Below, piece by piece: positions 6,065 through 18,336 of a DNA stretch of 64,000 nucleotides. The notes beneath the pieces were generated by a model, which was not told where the DNA came from, searched no databases, and saw only the letters and a list, made by a program, of their open reading frames with translations. Position numbers and translations under genes: made by a program. Origin of the DNA: Xylocopilactobacillus apicola. Lineage in GTDB: Bacteria; Bacillota; Bacilli; Lactobacillales; Lactobacillaceae. Position 1 is the first letter of the stretch. Each line of letters begins with the position of its first letter. Where the stretch lies: NCBI RefSeq assembly GCF_033095985.1, contig NZ_AP026802.1:1426001-1490000 (forward strand), read 5' to 3'.

Positions 6065-6728
6065 TGACACTCACCTCGTTAAATTTTCGATCAAAAAGTG
6101 AATTCCAAATTACTCCTACCACAAAAGTAATAACTGCCATTGGAATTGAATATAGAACGATTTTAGTAGGACTAACTGCGTATTTCAGACCATTCATGGT
6201 ACTAGAAATCAGTAAAACTCCACTGGAAGCAATGAACAAATTTTGAGCAAAAAAATTACCCAAATTTTCCACGGCCGCCGAATGTCCTTTGATAAGCTCT
6301 TGCTCACGTTTTGTTAATGGTCGTTTAGTTTCAGCTGCCGCAGTTGTCATTGGAACTACTAGTGGTCTTACAAAAGTAACTTGCCCTGAAAAAGAAATTC
6401 CAAAAATGCCACCAATTTCTCTAATCAACATGTAAATATCGAGAATTGTACTTGGAGTTGCATTTTTGATTCGTTTGATCGCGTTAATAGCTACCTCTTT
6501 TAATCCATGACTCTCAACTAAACCAATCATCGGCAAAGTTAGAAAATACAAGGTTACCATTCTGTTATCTGTAAAACTCTTTCCTAAAATCTCTAGTAAC
6601 TGGCCAAAATCCATCCCCGATAGCAAACCTGTCGCAACCGCTGCAATAATAACAACTGCCGTCGGATCAAATTTTAAAGCAAAACCAATTACAATAATTA
6701 AGATTCCAAGTAGTTTTATGTACTCCAT
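6054..6728 (-). CDS. DUF969 family membrane protein
   Basis: 224 residues, mostly hydrophobic, with about five to six transmembrane segments. The family segments are MIGLVESHGLKEVAI, IREIGGIFGISFSGQVTFVRP and AVENLGNFFAQNLFIASSG. The start ATG at 6728 follows AAGAGGGAG. First gene of the DUF969-DUF979-pcp operon. The glycine/proline-rich discontinuous helices resemble ion-transporter families, so it is probably half of a heteromeric transporter. Function is not proven. Confidence 0.85.
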   Translation of the reverse strand: MEYIKLLGILIIVIGFALKFDPTAVVIIAAVATGLLSGMDFGQLLEILGKSFTDNRMVTLYFLTLPMIGLVESHGLKEVAINAIKRIKNATPSTILDIYMLIREIGGIFGISFSGQVTFVRPLVVPMTTAAAETKRPLTKREQELIKGHSAAVENLGNFFAQNLFIASSGVLLISSTMNGLKYAVSPTKIVLYSIPMAVITFVVGVIWNSLFDRKFNEVSVNGK

Positions 6729-8220: not shown

Positions 8221-8708
8221 CTAGCAATGTCGATACCCCGTTTGAAACCTACAGGATCACCCCCGCTTGCGCGGGGAACACTAGTAGATAGCTACAGAAT
8301 CGAAGATAAGCTGGGGATCACCCCCGCTTGCGCGGGGAACACTGCACGGGGTCAACCTAATCGGGTCTCAGCATAGGATCACCCCCGCTTGCGCGGGGAA
8401 CACTATAAAGCGGTCAGACTGGCAGGGCTTTATAAAGGATCACCCCCGCTTGCGCGGGGAACACCAAGATTTCAAATCATACATGTGTTGAATTGCGGGA
8501 TCACCCCCGCTTGCGCGGGGAACACTTACTTCTATCGTTTCACCATTTTCTGGTGTAGGGATCACCCCCGCTTGCGCGGGGAACACGTCATGGTCATGCC
8601 CCAGGGCGAAATATCCACAGGATCACCCCCGCTTGCGCGGGGAACACAAAAAAACCACTTCGTCAAGTACCCGCCCTCGGGGATCACCCCCGCTTGCGCG
8701 GGGAACAC
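8193..8708 (-). CRISPR. Type I-E CRISPR array: 8 intact repeats plus a degenerate terminal repeat, 8 spacers
   Basis: Eight identical 28-bp repeats start at 8254, 8315, 8376, 8437, 8498, 8559, 8620 and 8681, with a strict 61-bp period and 33-bp spacers. A ninth, degenerate copy (8193-8220, 16 of 28 matches) is separated from the first by exactly 33 bp, so there are eight spacers. Read on the minus strand the repeat begins GTGTTCCCCGCGC and ends GGGTGATCC, the usual I-E orientation, with stem CCCCGC/GCGGGG; transcription therefore runs from 8708 down to 8193. Only 29 bp separate the leader-proximal repeat from the cas2-dnaQ stop codon. Perfect repeat identity suggests an active or recently active array. 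Confidence 0.97.
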
Positions 8709-8737
8709 ACTAAGAAAATCCCACTAAATCAACATTT

Positions 8738-9618
8738 CTAAATCTCCAGATCACCATTTTTTATGAGTTTTTCTGCCAGATCCATAGTTGCATCCGCATC
8801 AGATAGTGACTCATGAGGCTTTAAATTCTCAATCTCATATTTTTCTAAAACTGTCCCTAACCTGTAATCGTCTAAGAATTTATTTTTCTTTTTGACAACA
8901 GGCATCAAATCAATTAGTTTATTTGACAACTCTGATTCATTTAGATTTCTAAACGCCATCGAGATGAACTTATCATCAAACGACAGATTATACCCAACAA
9001 TCGGCATGTCCTCTGCAAATTCTTTTATATCTAATAATGCTTCAGACAATTCAACACCTTCATTTTCTAAAATTAAATTCGTGATACCTGTTAATTTCGT
9101 AATATTTTCAGGTATTTTTTTGTCGGTCTTAACGAACACATGGAACTTTTCTTTGAATCCATCAATATTATTTTTAACTGCACCAATGGAAATTATCTGA
9201 TCTTTACTAACATCTAAACCTGTAGTTTCAACATCAAGTGACATAAAGCTAGTTGGATTATTGGATACGACCCGTTTTTGAGTAAACTTTTTGGCTTTCC
9301 GCCATTTGGCAGCATTGCTAAATCCGTGTTTTACAAGTCCTTCTACCTTATTTAATCGCTTTACTAACGGGATACCGTCAAAATCTACAACCTGATAGTC
9401 AATTCTCGTAGTCCTGATTTGATAACCGAACTCGTTTTGAACATTGAAGACCATCGTTGCCTGACCATTGCCAATATCTCGCATAATTCGATCCCACAAT
9501 TGATCTCGAATTCTAGCACTAAAATTTCCAACATAAACGCCAGTCTGGATTTCTTGACACCACTTGGTTAAGTCACCTCTTAAGGAACGAGGAACTTTTG
9601 TTAAAGTAATAACGATCA

Positions 9619-9619
<1 letters not shown>
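8738..9619 (-). CDS. cas2: Cas2e fused to a DnaQ-like DEDDh exonuclease
   Basis: 293 residues in two domains. Residues 1 to about 95 are Cas2e (MIVITLTKVPRSLRGDLTKW, TGVYVGN), the structural hub of the Cas1-Cas2 integrase. Residues about 122-293 are a DEDDh 3'-5' exonuclease: D129 and E131 in SLDVETTG, D215/D216 in NLSFDD, H269 and D274 in PHESLSDADA. All catalytic positions are intact. The same fusion is known in Streptococcus thermophilus I-E, where the DnaQ domain trims prespacer 3' ends. The start ATG overlaps the cas1 stop (TAATG), so the two are coupled. Last gene of the operon, 29 bp from the array. Confidence 0.95.
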
Positions 9620-11218
<1,599 letters not shown>

Positions 11219-11229
11219 TTTGTTTTCTC

Positions 11230-11940
11230 CTACAACGCACTAAAAGGATCGTGATCTGTCGATTGATCTTTTTCTTGATAAGACGGATTAGTCAATTCAA
11301 TCATATCTCTCTCAACTGGACGATAGTTGAAAAAACGATTCTTTTGACTAAATGATCCGACACTATCTTTTACCATGAAATATTTATCTCCACTAAGTAA
11401 CTTTGAATCAGCCAGTAATTCAACTTTAACCGTTTGCTTATTAGATTTTGATTTTTGATACCAGCGGCTCGCTTGCCATGGAAAATCCTTTAAAACTTGA
11501 ACTGGATTTAACCCAGAAAATTCTTCGATCTGCAAAACTCCTGCTGGTACATTTGCGCGCCGTCCCAAAAACAGTTGATAGCCCGGATGTCTAAGAGCAA
11601 ATTGTATCTCATCGATTAACGAGTCATTATCACTTCCAATCGCTACCGCAAATACTGCATCTTGAATGTGTCCCCGATAAGTCAATTTTCGGGTGTCTTT
11701 TTTCCACTCAACCGTTTGAAATTCAGTAAAAACTCGACCTGGCTGATCAATTCTAACTGCAAAATCAAGACCATTTAAATCTGTGATTTTTTCATCATCT
11801 CGCTGGAATCCAAGTGCCGCAGCAATCATTCCGATCACTGCACTTTTTGAAGGATGAAGACTCGTAGTTCGCTGATTAAATGTTGCTTCATTACCAAACG
11901 ACTGAAGAGGACCGGTTAATTTAATCGTTATCGTTTTCAT
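11230..11940 (-). CDS. cas5e: Cas5e Cascade subunit
   Basis: 236 residues. MKTITIKLTGPLQSFGNEATFNQR is the typical Cas5e/CasD beginning (family pattern LxGPxQSWG); the following SLHPSKSAVIGMIAAALG is also diagnostic. Cas5e caps the crRNA 5' handle in Cascade and contacts Cas8e at the PAM. Its start overlaps the end of cas7e by 20 bp, and it is followed 11 bp later by cas6e. Confidence 0.94.
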   Translation of the reverse strand: MKTITIKLTGPLQSFGNEATFNQRTTSLHPSKSAVIGMIAAALGFQRDDEKITDLNGLDFAVRIDQPGRVFTEFQTVEWKKDTRKLTYRGHIQDAVFAVAIGSDNDSLIDEIQFALRHPGYQLFLGRRANVPAGVLQIEEFSGLNPVQVLKDFPWQASRWYQKSKSNKQTVKVELLADSKLLSGDKYFMVKDSVGSFSQKNRFFNYRPVERDMIELTNPSYQEKDQSTDHDPFSAL

Positions 11941-13015
11941 TTTGGACCACTTGTTGAAGCTCTTCTGATACTTTACTTAGTAACTCATTTAAATCTGTTA
12001 CTTGATCGTCCTTCAAAATACTATCTTTATCTCTTTCAATCTTTTCCATTGACAGTATTAAAGTTTTAATCGGTGTATCCACCATCTTCAAAGTGTTTTG
12101 ATATTCTTCTTCTAGTTTATTAATTGATGGTTTGACGTATCCTTGATTTGATTTCACTGGTTCTTCAAATGCTGAAACCAAATTAACGGGAGTATCAGTT
12201 CTAAGCGTAATCATTACATAATTAGGAAGAGTTTTATTGGCAAAAGTATTCTGCTTACCAGTTGGCATTGATAGTACAAACGATTTGATAAATTCAACTG
12301 CTCCTTCAACTGCCGCTTCAGATCCTAAATTATGAACCAACTCTGGGAAGTTTAAATTCGCATAACGATACAAAGTTGAAGAATTGTATTCGATCGAGCC
12401 TAACATTGTAGCTCCCGTTGTATCTTCTTTTTGGAGATCATCAAGGGCAGTGAAATAGTCAAATTCAGGTACTACTTCATGGGTAGAAATTGCATGGGCA
12501 ACTTGAGAAGATCCTTCGACATTTAGTTCTGGATTATCAGCAACCATCCGACCAAACAGAGCTAAATCTACTGACTGATTACCGTTGAAGATTTCTTTAA
12601 GTTCTTTTTTATCTATTTCTTCATGAGCAAGCACATATTCAGCAATTTTTTCAACTTGTCCTTTACTTATTAAAAGCAAAGCAGCCGTATCTTCACCTTT
12701 TAATTTAATGCCAGTACTTTTGAATACTTCTTTAACTTTATTATCCGCATCACTCTCAGATAAAGAAGAATCTAATGACATGATTTTCTCTTTTAATAAT
12801 TGAGCCAACTTTACTGTTCTTAATCCTGAACCCAAATCTTTACCATTCAACGCATGTCTCATTGCTCGTTTCCAGCTCTGAGAAGATACTCGTGATCTGA
12901 TAACTCCACCATATAAGGCAGTCTTTGGTGCCCCTGTGTCGTCACGATTGATATTAGACGATGGGACAGCTTGAAGGACATTGATGTCCAAGTATAGATT
13001 ATTTTTATTAGTCAT
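11921..13015 (-). CDS. cas7e: Cas7e Cascade backbone subunit
   Basis: 364 residues from the chosen start. Cas7e/CasC polymerises along the crRNA spacer and forms the Cascade backbone. Seen: LYLDINVLQAVPSSNINRDD, the RSRVSSQSWKRAMR segment and VVPEFDYFTALDD, all family landmarks. A longer in-frame start at 13057 would add 14 Lys/Glu-rich residues inside cse2; the ATG at 13015 sits behind AAGGAG with good spacing and gives an 8-bp overlap with cse2, as for other pairs in this operon, so it is preferred. Confidence 0.95.
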   Translation of the reverse strand: MTNKNNLYLDINVLQAVPSSNINRDDTGAPKTALYGGVIRSRVSSQSWKRAMRHALNGKDLGSGLRTVKLAQLLKEKIMSLDSSLSESDADNKVKEVFKSTGIKLKGEDTAALLLISKGQVEKIAEYVLAHEEIDKKELKEIFNGNQSVDLALFGRMVADNPELNVEGSSQVAHAISTHEVVPEFDYFTALDDLQKEDTTGATMLGSIEYNSSTLYRYANLNFPELVHNLGSEAAVEGAVEFIKSFVLSMPTGKQNTFANKTLPNYVMITLRTDTPVNLVSAFEEPVKSNQGYVKPSINKLEEEYQNTLKMVDTPIKTLILSMEKIERDKDSILKDDQVTDLNELLSKVSEELQQVVQNENDND

Positions 13016-13649
13016 TTTTTTCTCCTTTTTCTTCTGCTTTCTTAGCAGCATTTCCATAATATTGTTGACCCCATGATAATCGAACCGAATTTGCCGATTC
13101 GTAACTCATTTGAAACCAATAAAGGTCTTGAGCCAATTTTCCATAATCAATTTTTATCTTCAATTTTTTCGATTTAATGATGCCAACCAAGTGATTAAGT
13201 GAATTGATGACGCTATTAACATCAGTTGTTGACAATGTTTGGCGAACTCGCCGATCCAAAGCTACTTCTAAATCTTCGTTATGTCTCAATTCACCCAAAA
13301 CCGTGAAAAGGTCAACTCCTGGCTCTAACTTGTCATCTGATTCTGAATCAGAATTAGATTCTTTTTTATAGTCAATTGGTCCATAAACGAATTCATCACT
13401 GCCCTGCTGATGAATTGCATACATTCTCAAAGCAGAATATACTGCCTTTTCAGCGTATGATGGTTGACCATTTCTTCCCAATAAATCCTCTCGTAACGCT
13501 CTCATTATAATCGGCCAGGCGGGTTGAGCTCGAGGGCTGTTAAAACTTGCTGCACCACGAATACTAGCCAAAACTCCTCGGTAACTAGCGGTCCCATGTA
13601 ATATATGTATAATTGAACCAGTTACATTTTTAATTTCACTTTGTTTCAT
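13008..13649 (-). CDS. cse2: Cse2/Cas11e small subunit of Cascade
   Basis: 213 residues, all-helical in composition, with the family segments SYRGVLASIRGAASFNSPRA and EKAVYSALRMYAIHQQG. Cse2 forms the belly of Cascade and stabilises the displaced strand. It starts 8 bp after cas8e and overlaps cas7e by 8 bp. An acidic linker (SNSDSESDDKLEPG, around residues 93-106) is inserted in the middle. Confidence 0.92.
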   Translation of the reverse strand: MKQSEIKNVTGSIIHILHGTASYRGVLASIRGAASFNSPRAQPAWPIIMRALREDLLGRNGQPSYAEKAVYSALRMYAIHQQGSDEFVYGPIDYKKESNSDSESDDKLEPGVDLFTVLGELRHNEDLEVALDRRVRQTLSTTDVNSVINSLNHLVGIIKSKKLKIKIDYGKLAQDLYWFQMSYESANSVRLSWGQQYYGNAAKKAEEKGEKND

Positions 13650-13657
13650 AATTTCTG

Positions 13658-15343
13658 TTACCCTTTTATTCCTAGCTTGTTTAGAACACTTCCTAACAAA
13701 CGATTTCTTGCAATAAAAATATTAAGAGACTTATTGTTGTCTTCTTCAATCCCCGTAATATCACGTGGACTGCTATTTTTCATAAATTCTTTAACCTCAG
13801 AATTAACAATATCCCACAATGTTTCTTTCCACTCATTAATTTTCAGATCTCGATCATCATGATCTGATAATGAAGCTAACCACTCTTTGAATGGAAGATT
13901 TAATCGATCATAAAATTTACTCATTTGCTTTTTGTTAAATTCTTTCGAATCAAGACTCCGAATTTTAGATAAATTATCAGAAAATTTCCAATAGCTTTTG
14001 GCAACATCTTGGGTTAAGTCGATTGTATCCTCAATTCGTCGAGGCCAAAAATCTTGTTTATCGTCAAAGATTACATCAAGTCTCATTGTCAAATCATCAG
14101 ATATTTCCGCAAAAGGCGATTGAGATGTCGCATTTCCATCACTAACCAGTGAAACTGAAACTAAAGATACTGGTAATGACCGATCGATCATTCCATCTCC
14201 TTTAAGCCGACTCAACCAACTAACGATCCCTGGTCGATGAGTTTCATTCGATTTATTCGGATTCACGTAATCTCCAAAATTACGCCACATCGCTACATCC
14301 ATATAGTCCTTGTTTTTAACTGCCGGAACATAAATATCAGGCTCTTTTTTTGATTTTTTTCTCCAAGTACTCATCGGTTCAATATCAAAAGCATTATCTG
14401 GACTGTACATTGGGACTCCCGCACTATAAATTGTCGGAACCCCATCAGATGACCATTCAATGTGAATTAGGCGAGACCATGATGTGTACAAAGCTGCACG
14501 ATTATCGGGCAGTAATTCTTTCTTGCGCCATTTAACATATTCCTTAATATCAGTGCATTCCCAAATGGGACGCTCAATGTGATACTCCTCATCATCGAAA
14601 ACCAAGTTCAACATTAATGTCTCAAATAAATTTTTGCCTTTTACGTAAACCGGGTTTAACTTATAGAGCCACCCGGAAGGCGATGAAAACTTTTCTGAAG
14701 TTTCAACCTTTGCCTTGTCTGTTACACCGGTATAGTTTTGATAAGAAATCAACCAGCGGACTAATTCAGGCATATCTAATTCATTTTTAAAATCAGATAT
14801 TTTGGGAGAAAATAGATCTGGCGTATTATTACTCTCTGAAATTTGGCGGTTCATCTGCTTTATAGCAACCGTTCCTGTTCCTTTTTCAATTTTGTACTTT
14901 TCAAGGACCAGTGAATCATAATCTTCTTTTGATACTTGGTAAAAAGGATGTTCACCGAAAACATCAAACTTATCTTGATTATGTTTTAAGTAGTCAATGA
15001 CAACGGAAGTAAACTGACCATTTTGAAATAAACTCTCCCAAGTATCTAATAAGTCCTCCTCATCGTAATCTATAGTTGAATTTAAGACCTGAAAATTATC
15101 TGGATCAATTTCCAACCATTCATAAGGTCTATTTTCATTACTAAAGCGTGAATAGACGGTGTGCAAAATTGCTAGTAAAAATCTCATTATCGCAAGGTCT
15201 TGAGATCGCATTTCTCCTGCCAATTGCCGATAGTTATTGGCATTTTCGAAAAAATCGATCAACGACACTTCGCAAGTTTTTGAATCACTATCAATTACTT
15301 TAATCCAGGGATCAGTGGTTAAGTTGAATTGTTTATTATTCAT
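13658..15343 (-). CDS. cas8e: Cas8e/Cse1 large Cascade subunit
   Basis: 561 residues, the expected length. MNNKQFNLTTDPWIKVI at the N-terminus and FGEHPFYQVSKED (around residues 110-125) are characteristic Cse1 landmarks. The protein recognises the PAM and recruits Cas3. Its start overlaps the cas3 stop by 8 bp. Because it reads the PAM, it is the subunit that would have to accept the AA-type PAM next to the pseudo-spacer target at 18116-18137. Confidence 0.94.
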   Translation of the reverse strand: MNNKQFNLTTDPWIKVIDSDSKTCEVSLIDFFENANNYRQLAGEMRSQDLAIMRFLLAILHTVYSRFSNENRPYEWLEIDPDNFQVLNSTIDYDEEDLLDTWESLFQNGQFTSVVIDYLKHNQDKFDVFGEHPFYQVSKEDYDSLVLEKYKIEKGTGTVAIKQMNRQISESNNTPDLFSPKISDFKNELDMPELVRWLISYQNYTGVTDKAKVETSEKFSSPSGWLYKLNPVYVKGKNLFETLMLNLVFDDEEYHIERPIWECTDIKEYVKWRKKELLPDNRAALYTSWSRLIHIEWSSDGVPTIYSAGVPMYSPDNAFDIEPMSTWRKKSKKEPDIYVPAVKNKDYMDVAMWRNFGDYVNPNKSNETHRPGIVSWLSRLKGDGMIDRSLPVSLVSVSLVSDGNATSQSPFAEISDDLTMRLDVIFDDKQDFWPRRIEDTIDLTQDVAKSYWKFSDNLSKIRSLDSKEFNKKQMSKFYDRLNLPFKEWLASLSDHDDRDLKINEWKETLWDIVNSEVKEFMKNSSPRDITGIEEDNNKSLNIFIARNRLLGSVLNKLGIKG

Positions 15344-18092
15344 TGCTTTCCTCCTTTGTTAATTTTAGCCCAAACTTAGGCGAATAATTCAGATTCCACT
15401 TCTGATTAATTGTAGCATTAAAGTTTTCGTCTAATTTGACCGCTAATTCTCCTTTTAACCACTTACTAGATTCCCATCTTGGAAAGTATTTTCTAGTCGA
15501 CGTTTCTAAATCATTAATAATTTTATCTACATCATAATAAATCGCAGCGGGTAATCGAATAATTTGTTCAGCAATCTCTTTGTCCGAACATTTCTCAATC
15601 GGTCTACCATCAATTAAAAAAGTGTGGTCTTTCTTCTCTTGAATTAAAATGACTTCAAGTGTTTCTTTGATATCACGAACTGCAGCTTGCGCTTTCTGGT
15701 CATCGACTTTACTGTGCGAGTTCCCCAACCAACCATGTAAATTATTTCTTTTAGACGGTCGCTTCAACCGAAATGCTTGTGCCTTAGTCTCAGAGTCTGC
15801 TAAATGAGTTTCAAATTCATCACGAGCTTCTTCAAGCCCCTCTACTTCAGGATCATTTTCTTTGTCATAAACTGCTTGGACCAAATTAGATATATCTTTG
15901 GGCAAATTAATCTGATCATTTAGATAATAATCGGTTTTCATGAGGAGATATTTTTCATAGATAGCCTCATTTCCTGATCCGTAGTTACCCATAGATTCAA
16001 TACCCATTACATATAATTTAGGATCTTTGAACTTGTCAGGTCGTTTAATCGCATGACGATGGAGTCTTCCAGCTCGCTGCAAAAGTAAATCCATTGGGGA
16101 AATATCGGTATAAAGAACATCGAAATCAATATCTAGTGATTGTTCAAGAACTTGTGTGCCAATCACAACCATTTTTTTAGGTCTTTGTACATCTTTGCCA
16201 ATTTTCGATTGCAAATATTTTTCAATTTGTGTTCGTTCAGGGGCTAAAAACGCTGAATGCAGAACAATCAATTCAACATCTTCTTTATCGACGAGTTCAG
16301 CCAACGCTTGAGCTCTTTTAACTGTGTTAACGATCACTCCTGCAACTCCACCGCCAGCGATTTCCGATAAGATTGACTGAACTAGTTCCTCATCTTCTAA
16401 ATTAATTCGTTCAACTTCAAGCGTTACAGGTTTTTGATCTGAATGTCCCGCAAAATTAGAAACTTGCTTGACCTCAGTTCCATCTAAAACCGTCAACAAA
16501 GGATAAGCCTGTGATTTAGTCCAATCTCCACCTACACCTATCGATTTTCCGTATTTTCCACGGTAGTAACTTGCAATTAACTCCTGCCGTTTTTCTTTTG
16601 GCAATGTTGCTGACAAAATCACCATCGGGACCCGATACGCTCCAAGCCACTCAATTGCCATGTACAAATATTGACTCATATAGGCGTCATACGCGTGCAC
16701 CTCGTCAATTACAACCACTTTATTATTAAAACCTAAGTGTCTCAAAAATAAATGTTTTTGTTTAAGCGCCATCAGCAAAAGCATATCAATTGTACCGACC
16801 GTGAAATTAGCTAACGTTGATTTCTTCCCAGAAAACCAGTCATTAACAACTACAGCACCTGTATCTTCGATGTTACTGGCGTTTGGTAGATTTTCGTAAT
16901 CTGAATTGAATTGCGCCTTGCCGTGCAGCAATTTGAATGGGAAGTTTTCGTTTTGATCTTTGGCTAACGTTTCTAACCAACTAAGCACCCTGTTGAACAT
17001 CGCATTACTCGTAGCTTGGGTGGGCAAACCCCAAAACAATCCACTACGTTTAGTGGCATAAGCTAGTTGTTCTGTAGCTACTAGAGAAATTTCAGTTTTT
17101 CCTAATCCCATCGGTGCTTCAATGATCACCATTCCAGGATCATTTGCTTGATCAATAGTTTCTGTGATAACTCTTTGCACTGGTCGAGCATTAAAACCCC
17201 AACGTTTTCGATAAGGATCTTCCTCAAGACTCACCTTTTTCGGTTCCCAATTTTCTCCAATATTCCATGTTTCAATTGCATTTTCAAAACGAGCTTGAAA
17301 ATCAATGTCATCAAAATTTTTATCAAGAGAAATTAACGGAAACAGTTTTTTACTCCGATCATTCCCCAGAAACTCACTCGATGCGAACCAATCGGCTGTA
17401 ATTAAAAGTCCCTCTAAAACTACGGCTCGTGATTGATTAACGTTTGGAATGTCTTTTACGGATTGATACCCTGCTCGACTTAATCCGTATTCAAAAATTT
17501 CTTTCTGAACGTTTCGCCACATCTTACATACTTCCGGAACGCTACTGTCAGATCTAGGATCTTTATCGTATTGATAATAATTAGCTCTATAATCATTGAT
17601 TTGATTATAAGGAACATTTTCTCCAGCATCCCCGTGATGTCCTCCGATAATTGATCCGATTGATTCAGGAACACCTAAGTCCTCTAATATAGCTTCACCA
17701 GCCATGGCATGTGGTGATTTTCTAGGAAATGACAAACTAATCTGATCCAGATCGATAAATTTTGATTGAACCAACTTATCAATCAATTCGTTATCTAATT
17801 CTTTGTCACCATTATATGAAGGAATGGTTTGAAATGCTGGCGTTGCTTTACCAATATCATGGGTAATGCCCAAAAACTTTACTAATTTCCTCAGTTCATC
17901 CTCATCACCAACACCTTCAACAAACCAACTTTTTGTCCCTTCACTTAACCAGTGGTTTAGGAGCCAACCAATCGTATTTTCGGCATCAATTAAGTGTGCC
18001 ATTAAAGGCAACCAAAGTTGCTTCCCGTCCTCATTCGATTTTTTAGCCCACATATTTCGGGCCATTAAATTTACTTTTTTATTTTCTTTCAT
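15336..18092 (-). CDS. cas3: Cas3 HD nuclease-helicase (type I-E effector)
   Basis: 918 residues. The N-terminal HD nuclease has MAHLIDAE, GITHDIGKATPAFQ, SPHAMAG and GGHHGD; the superfamily 2 helicase has Walker A APMGLGKTE, box II VVIDEVHAYD, SAT motif ILSATLP and motif VI QRAGRLHRH. Recruited by Cascade, it nicks and degrades target DNA 3' to 5'. First gene of the cas operon; ATG at 18092 follows AAGGAG. All nuclease and helicase motifs are intact, so interference looks functional and tight control of the operon would be useful. Confidence 0.97.
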   Translation of the reverse strand: MKENKKVNLMARNMWAKKSNEDGKQLWLPLMAHLIDAENTIGWLLNHWLSEGTKSWFVEGVGDEDELRKLVKFLGITHDIGKATPAFQTIPSYNGDKELDNELIDKLVQSKFIDLDQISLSFPRKSPHAMAGEAILEDLGVPESIGSIIGGHHGDAGENVPYNQINDYRANYYQYDKDPRSDSSVPEVCKMWRNVQKEIFEYGLSRAGYQSVKDIPNVNQSRAVVLEGLLITADWFASSEFLGNDRSKKLFPLISLDKNFDDIDFQARFENAIETWNIGENWEPKKVSLEEDPYRKRWGFNARPVQRVITETIDQANDPGMVIIEAPMGLGKTEISLVATEQLAYATKRSGLFWGLPTQATSNAMFNRVLSWLETLAKDQNENFPFKLLHGKAQFNSDYENLPNASNIEDTGAVVVNDWFSGKKSTLANFTVGTIDMLLLMALKQKHLFLRHLGFNNKVVVIDEVHAYDAYMSQYLYMAIEWLGAYRVPMVILSATLPKEKRQELIASYYRGKYGKSIGVGGDWTKSQAYPLLTVLDGTEVKQVSNFAGHSDQKPVTLEVERINLEDEELVQSILSEIAGGGVAGVIVNTVKRAQALAELVDKEDVELIVLHSAFLAPERTQIEKYLQSKIGKDVQRPKKMVVIGTQVLEQSLDIDFDVLYTDISPMDLLLQRAGRLHRHAIKRPDKFKDPKLYVMGIESMGNYGSGNEAIYEKYLLMKTDYYLNDQINLPKDISNLVQAVYDKENDPEVEGLEEARDEFETHLADSETKAQAFRLKRPSKRNNLHGWLGNSHSKVDDQKAQAAVRDIKETLEVILIQEKKDHTFLIDGRPIEKCSDKEIAEQIIRLPAAIYYDVDKIINDLETSTRKYFPRWESSKWLKGELAVKLDENFNATINQKWNLNYSPKFGLKLTKEESNE

Positions 18093-18115
18093 CCATTCTC
18101 CTTACTTCAAACTCG

Positions 18116-18137
18116 AATATTTTAGATAATACTATAG
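18116..18137 (-). promoter_or_regulatory. Putative Cascade target site over the cas -10 box
   Basis: Compared with the pseudo-spacer 18235-18256 it matches 17 of 22 positions: 5 contiguous at one end and 11 contiguous (ATAATACTATA on the plus strand) in the seed half. On the minus strand the preceding bases are AAA, so the flanking PAM reads AAA or AAC depending on whether the first spacer base is counted as PAM-derived. The site covers the -10 element and the start region. Confidence 0.7.
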
Positions 18138-18154
18138 TTTTTTCTTAGAGTCAA
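18126..18154 (-). promoter_or_regulatory. Promoter of the cas operon
   Basis: On the minus strand TTGACT (18149-18154), a 17-nt spacer, TATTAT (18126-18131). The expected start near 18119 gives a leader of about 27 nt to cas3. The -10 box lies entirely within the stretch (18116-18137) matched by the pseudo-spacer at 18235-18256. Confidence 0.82.
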
Positions 18155-18164
18155 TTTTTAATTC

Positions 18165-18200
18165 AAAAAAATAGCGGTTTGACTGCCGCTAATTTTTTTT
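18165..18200 (-). terminator. Terminator between the small RNA unit and the cas promoter
   Basis: Arms TAGCGG (18172-18177) and CCGCTA (18186-18191), with T-runs on the appropriate side in both directions (seven on the minus strand, eight on the plus strand). It isolates the mini-array transcript from the cas operon, so cas genes must rely on their own promoter. Confidence 0.85.
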
Positions 18201-18206
18201 GAAAAC

Positions 18207-18285
18207 TTAATACACCCGCTTATGCGGGGAATACTATATTCCAAATAATACTATAAGGATCACCCCTGCTTATTGCAGGGAATAA
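18207..18285 (-). repeat. Two degenerate CRISPR repeats around a 22-nt pseudo-spacer
   Basis: The copies at 18207-18234 and 18257-18285 share the orientation of the main array. The first has 20/28 identity; the second is 29 nt because its loop is one base longer. Both keep a hairpin, one through a compensatory C-G to T-A change. The 22-nt interval differs from the 33 nt of every true spacer. Confidence 0.88.
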
Positions 18286-18307: not shown

Positions 18308-18336
18308 AGATTAGTTCTTTCCACTCAAATTTTCAA
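18308..18336 (-). promoter_or_regulatory. Putative promoter of the mini-array RNA
   Basis: On the minus strand TTGAAA (18331-18336), 17 nt, TAATCT (18308-18313). The start would fall near 18301, about 16 nt before the first pseudo-repeat. The -10 matches only the T1, A2 and T6 positions, so the assignment rests mainly on spacing and position. Confidence 0.5.

Follow-up and report, generated by a model that had tools for sequence, protein, structure and literature searches.

A candidate Cas-regulating RNA guide upstream of the type I-E cas operon of Xylocopilactobacillus apicola covaries with the cas3 promoter among Lactobacillaceae

A two-repeat mini-CRISPR was found on the reverse strand at positions 18207-18285 of the window, the 64,000-nucleotide stretch of Xylocopilactobacillus apicola DNA that was analysed, upstream of a complete type I-E cas operon. 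Its anatomy, complementarity to the cas3 promoter, PAM, covariation in relatives, and mismatch pattern were observed in this analysis. With a probability that we estimate at about 0.88, the element encodes a CreR-type RNA, whose guide would be loaded into Cascade and autorepress the cas operon via the cas3 promoter. A CreR-like guide had been proposed in a first-pass annotation of the sequence, and this reading is supported by the covariation, the AAY PAM, and the mismatches at guide positions 6 and 12 described below. According to review accounts of Cas-regulating RNAs (CreRs; Liu et al., 2023, as described in PMC12737573, PMC13131331, and PMC12948488), such RNAs repress their own type I-B, I-E, or V-A systems through a guide that is partly complementary to the promoter (PMC13131331; PMC12737573). 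As in those accounts, the X. apicola locus combines a mini-CRISPR near a cas operon with one guide that partly matches the cognate cas promoter, and carries no toxin; unlike for the CreRs reported there, expression and autorepression are predictions from sequence.

The cognate effector is complete and encoded in cis, in the order cas3-casABCDE-cas1-cas2. On the reverse strand, the operon comprises cas3 (15336-18092; TIGR01587 and TIGR01596 above cut-off), casA/cse1 (cas8e; 13658-15343; TIGR02547), casB/cse2 (13008-13649; TIGR02548), cas7/casC (11921-13057; TIGR01869), cas5e/casD (11230-11940; TIGR01868), cas6e/casE (10568-11218; TIGR01907), cas1e (9619-10566; TIGR03638), and a cas2e fused to a DEDDh 3'-5' exonuclease domain (8738-9619; TIGR01873 at residues 1-85, DnaQ-type hits at residues 113-287). 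This DEDDh (DnaQ-like) domain probably trims new spacers. The operon is followed on the same strand by a canonical CRISPR array (8254-8709) of eight identical repeats, GTGTTCCCCGCGCAAGCGGGGGTGATCC, with a 61-nt period and 33-nt spacers. The hairpin geometry of this repeat implies an 8-nt handle, GUGAUCC+N, so that the first spacer base corresponds to the PAM-derived -1 position.

Other repeats were seen at G000:C1:2056374-2056522 (approximately positions 6375-6523 of a 19-kb stretch), where a second small array of four to five repeats has the slightly different repeat GTATTCCCCGCGTGAGCGGGGGTGATCC and no cas genes were present among the listed ORFs of that stretch. A solitary I-E repeat, GTATTCCCCGCGGATGCGGGGGTGATCC, lies at G000:C1:1629495-1629521 (positions 1996-2022 of a 5-kb stretch) within a fragment of a LexA/S24-like gene, close to an integrase; its handle is followed by TTTTTACAGCGAGCCCATGACC, and the ORFs of that stretch included no cas gene. 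It may be what is left of an array, or a further ectopic guide.

Read in crRNA sense, the mini-CRISPR has the sequence TTATTCCCTGCAATAAGCAGGGGTGATCC - TTATAGTATTATTTGGAATATA - GTATTCCCCGCATAAGCGGGTGTATTAA; it adjoins the cas genes, about 115 nt before the cas3 start codon. Both repeats are degenerate. Repeat 1 (R1, TTATTCCCTGCAATAAGCAGGGGTGATCC; 18257-18285, reverse strand) has an intact 5' handle, GTGATCC, at 18257-18263, and its hairpin is preserved via the paired changes CCCTGC/GCAGGG. Repeat 2 (R2, GTATTCCCCGCATAAGCGGGTGTATTAA; 18207-18234, reverse strand) has retained its hairpin and 5' half and lost its handle. Between them lies a pseudo-spacer of 22 nt (TTATAGTATTATTTGGAATATA; 18235-18256, reverse strand), the first base of which occupies the PAM-derived handle position, leaving a 21-nt guide. 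An intrinsic terminator (TAGCGGCAGTCAAACCGCTA followed by seven T residues; 18165-18191, reverse strand) is located between the mini-CRISPR and the cas3 promoter and, by its position after R2, separates the mini-CRISPR transcript from that promoter. A stem-loop with a T-run likewise occurs in a sister species of the same genus (G009). The predicted 140-nt mini-CRISPR transcript folded much better than shuffled sequences (z -6.0), partly owing to the terminator. A candidate promoter for this transcript may lie at 18308-18336 on the reverse strand (TTGAAA at 18331-18336, a 17-nt spacing, and TAATCT at 18308-18313); its consensus is weak, yet the block is conserved in the sister species in a partial alignment. 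An Rfam search gave no real match, the best hits scoring far below gathering thresholds.

The pseudo-spacer (18235-18256) agrees with a segment of the cas3 promoter (CTATAGTATTATCTAAAATATT; 18116-18137, reverse strand) at 17 of 22 positions, 11 of them contiguous; these counts, as well as the claim that the target includes the whole -10 box, were already made in the first-pass annotation and were reproduced here. The promoter concerned, TTGACT-17-TATTAT (18126-18154, reverse strand), scored highest among sigma-70-like sites (10/12), and its -10 box lies inside the target. Two PAMs, AAA and AAC, had been considered, with the contiguous match placed at spacer positions 2-12. The repeat-spacer register and the array spacer starts (8/8 T or C) imply that the first spacer base is PAM-derived; the target PAM is thus 5'-AAC-3' on the non-target strand (18137-18139, reverse strand), guide positions 1-11 are paired, and position 12 is mismatched. 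The AAC alternative accordingly held, and the numbering had to be shifted to guide positions 1-11. AAC conforms to AAY, the PAM of lactobacillar I-E systems (PMC11288051; PMC8482600).

Several comparisons addressed the specificity of this match. When approximately 128,000 positions were compared over the two strands of the window, a guide match of at least 17/22 was found at a single non-self site, the cas promoter, and AAY plus the 11-nt seed occurred a single time in the 2.31-Mb genome, at the cas3 promoter. Against 2000 dinucleotide shuffles, the guide's best match within its own promoter had a p value of 0.0005, and spacers of the canonical array, used as a control, showed no match to the cas promoter above 10/17. 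Assignment of the element to a canonical array or an ordinary self-targeting spacer was considered and rejected, its repeats being degenerate and unequal, its spacer 22 nt long, and its match partial.

A decayed CRISPR array remnant, with a spacer that is similar to the AT-rich cas promoter only by coincidence, would also show degenerate repeats in AT-rich sequence (GC 37%). The first-pass annotation had named beforehand a comparison of related genomes, in which independent drift of pseudo-spacer and promoter would speak against a CreR. In a Cas3 search over 398 Lactobacillaceae genomes, the DNA upstream of cas3 was taken at 75 loci and scanned for degenerate I-E repeat pairs, from which candidates were chosen by eye; guide matches were then sought on both strands, with no PAM requirement. 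Mini-CRISPR candidates were present in 22 of the 75 upstream regions, and 13 of these 22 matched their own cas3 promoter, with guides that differed among loci. All 13 best matches were on the same strand and between the mini-CRISPR and cas3, with agreement at 13 to 16 of 17 positions. For the permutation test, every candidate was included, matching or not, and one near-duplicate was dropped. The resulting 21 own pairs had a mean of 12.9 matches, vs 10.8 (sd 0.22) for permuted promoters (z 9.6), and none of 100,000 promoter permutations reached the own-pair mean. In a wider scan of 355 repeat-like units, the null rate was 4/7004 swapped pairs. Guide and promoter thus covary across genera, the opposite of the independent drift named beforehand.

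Named genomes with guide-promoter pairs include Secundilactobacillus odoratitofui, S. silagei, and Lentilactobacillus parafarraginis. Within the named genome collection, an alignment query gave 80 named loci and a single-protein search no confirmed relative. The other 9 of the 22 candidates had no clear cas3 promoter match, a point in favour of chance remnants; some of them match other nearby sites, and for others no match was found.

The closest comparison was provided by the sister species, the Cas3 of which is 90% identical. Its guide (TTATAAAATGATTTGGATTGTG) and promoter (TTATAATATGTTATAGATTGTA) agree at 17/22 positions, whereas crossed pairs between the two loci gave only 15/22 and 12/22, with 7-8/10 in the seed. 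Although the promoters of the two species differ at 9/22 positions and their guides at 6, pairing has been retained, which, at the level of sequence, is direct evidence for guide-promoter coevolution.

Target PAMs and mismatches at the 13 loci followed a regular pattern. With no PAM imposed, every target was flanked by AAY (AAT in seven, AAC in six), and 206 of 213 array spacers start with T or C. Guide positions 1-13 contained 19 mismatches in 169 cells, of which 7 were at position 6 and 10 at position 12, an enrichment (17/19) with a hypergeometric P of 5e-15. We know of no expected source of such a position 6/12 pattern other than an R-loop made by Cascade. In type I-E Cascade, crRNA positions 6, 12, 18, and so on are flipped out (PMC5965380), and position 6 is less important than positions 1-5 for Cascade binding in vivo (PMC5904413). 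AAT is the catalogued PAM of Lactobacillus I-E systems (PMC8482600). A study of Ligilactobacillus salivarius validated it, observed AAY PAMs, and also showed repression of a reporter by Cascade (PMC11288051).

Repeat retention was similarly selective. The R1 handle GTGATCC was conserved at 7/7 positions in 12 of the 13 loci and at 6/7 in one, vs only 2-5/7 for the R2 handle, and the 5' half GTATTCC was retained at 6-7/7 positions in R2 and at 4-7/7 in R1. Hairpins were kept by paired changes (CCCTGC/GCAGGG and CCTTGC/GCGAGG vs CCCCGC/GCGGGG). A single guide needs the 5' handle from R1 and the 3' hairpin from R2, and both are retained. Conservation of handle and hairpins, along with the covariation across genera, the universal AAY, and the mismatches at positions 6 and 12, argues against a remnant with a fortuitous match; statistically, that explanation is already refuted, and we regard it as extremely improbable.

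A self-targeting spacer of the ordinary kind, picked up accidentally from the cas promoter and later crippled by mutations that allow escape from autoimmunity, would more readily account for the 5 of 13 loci with full-length pseudo-spacers (33-34 nt, compared with 33 nt in arrays), and self-targeting I-E spacers with AAY PAMs occur in Ligilactobacillus (PMC11288051). Full-length complementarity was however found in none of the 13 cases, pseudo-spacers at the other 8 loci are only 21-23 nt long, the same short seed match has been reached in many species by unrelated guides, and the sister species keep their pairing instead of losing it. An accidental self-targeting origin is therefore considered very unlikely. 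The element is better described as a Cascade guide on which selection acts to maintain binding to the promoter of its own cas genes, most likely for autorepression.

The short guides fall approximately 12 nt below normal length (33-12 = 21), which equals two Cas7 steps. It is conceivable, if on balance doubtful, that guides of 21-23 nt form a smaller, four-Cas7 Cascade that acts as a dedicated repressor unable to license Cas3. If so, one operon would give rise to two effector forms, full-size for defence and short for regulation. In type I-F systems, shortened guides bind DNA without triggering the nuclease, and type I-E is stated to be less restricted (PMC7296934).

The architecture also resembles that of CreA, the antitoxin guide of CreTA/CrePA modules (type I-B, Haloarcula), in which two degenerate repeats surround a pseudo-spacer that partly matches a promoter and Cascade serves as the repressor (PMC9458426). 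Cascade is proposed to have the same role here; CreA, in contrast, represses a toxin, and the gene proposed to be repressed here is cas3. That the X. apicola element is itself a CreA-type guide, directed at a toxin instead of the cas genes, would agree with this shared architecture (PMC9458426), with mini-CRISPRs that target sites other than the cas3 promoter, and with one relative (G088) in which the target region precedes a 91-aa HTH-like ORF ahead of cas3. At the present locus, the targeted promoter runs straight into cas3 through a leader (18093-18125) that leaves no room for a toxin gene, which makes a CreA-type function highly improbable. Membership of CreTA or CrePA was rejected, as no toxin-sized gene lies between promoter and cas3. 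In G088, where the guide target and ORF fall within positions 884-1416 of the extracted region (L032), the HTH-like protein could be a regulator or a CrePA-like partner. Another relative (G299) has a further repeat approximately 1093 nt upstream of cas3, with a guide that matches a site approximately 906 nt upstream, next to an AAC PAM.

A guide that acts on the promoter for a non-repressive purpose, for example as a decoy or in priming adaptation, was also considered, since partial matches with a good PAM allow Cascade binding without interference (PMC5904413). Against this, most of the 13 loci have a target that overlaps the predicted -35/-10 region, and priming at the host's own cas promoter would presumably be harmful. 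Such a role is judged to be quite unlikely, and autorepression by a CreR-type guide is preferred.

In the proposed mechanism, the mini-CRISPR would be transcribed and cut by Cas6e at both degenerate repeat hairpins, and the processed RNA, with handle GUGAUCC+N and a 21-nt guide, would load into type I-E Cascade. The complex would bind the cas3 promoter at the AAC PAM, with pairing of guide positions 1-5, 7-11, and part of the remainder, and by covering the -10 box would block transcription of the cas operon through promoter occlusion. Complementarity of this length would probably not suffice to recruit Cas3 and elicit cleavage. Competition for Cascade would come from canonical crRNAs, such that cas expression would be expected to rise when crRNAs are abundant or Cascade is inhibited; this relief by competing crRNAs or anti-CRISPRs is proposed by analogy with CreR reviews (PMC12737573; PMC13131331). 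In Escherichia coli, PAM-distal mismatches weaken repression by promoter-bound Cascade and off-target binding is transcriptionally inert (PMC5904413), so partial pairing need not repress strongly. A further caveat comes from G184 and G088, whose targets lie on the margin of the best predicted promoter core or beyond it.

Repression by a CRISPR effector with a dedicated short guide has counterparts in class 2 systems. The tracr-L guide of Streptococcus, which is tracrRNA-derived, directs Cas9 to repress the cas operon. Repression of host genes in Francisella by scaRNA-Cas9, again with a short guide dedicated to the task, is outlined in a study of CreTA (PMC9458426). Both differ from the present locus in using a class 2 effector and a guide of different origin.

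Mini-CRISPRs with other targets were observed within and beyond the family. In G129 (L074, also L110) and Limosilactobacillus fastidiosus (G288; L059/L100), the guide has its match immediately before the first repeat of its own mini-CRISPR, with an AA-type PAM and a position 6 mismatch, as if it regulated its own or a divergent promoter. In Kineothrix alysoides, a Bacillota MAG, and Lactobacillus agrestimuris (L117, L123, and L109), mini-CRISPRs upstream of cas3 carry guides whose matches, again with AA-type PAMs, lie ahead of the element itself or, close to cas3, on the opposite strand. Two Gardnerella vaginalis loci (L124 and L126) and one of Arcanobacterium (L128) have mini-CRISPRs before cas3 with a 49-nt repeat spacing and a guide start, TTCT(G/A)TGTTTCG, common across genera. 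The seeds of the two Gardnerella guides match, instead of the cas3 promoter, a site on the antisense strand at the 3' end of cas3, with an AAC PAM and a position 6 mismatch. Judged by these predicted elements, the mini-CRISPR guide phenomenon extends outside the Lactobacillaceae.

This analysis contributes the covariation seen throughout the family, the PAM, the mismatch signature at positions 6 and 12, and the division of guides into two length classes. Covariation and mismatch positions together allow the requirements of Cascade for regulatory binding to be gauged through selection. The findings suggest that RNA guides autoregulate the type I-E systems of many lactic acid bacteria, in which anti-CRISPRs or crRNA overload would be predicted to raise cas expression, and offer a possible natural handle by which endogenous CRISPR systems of food and probiotic bacteria may be tuned.
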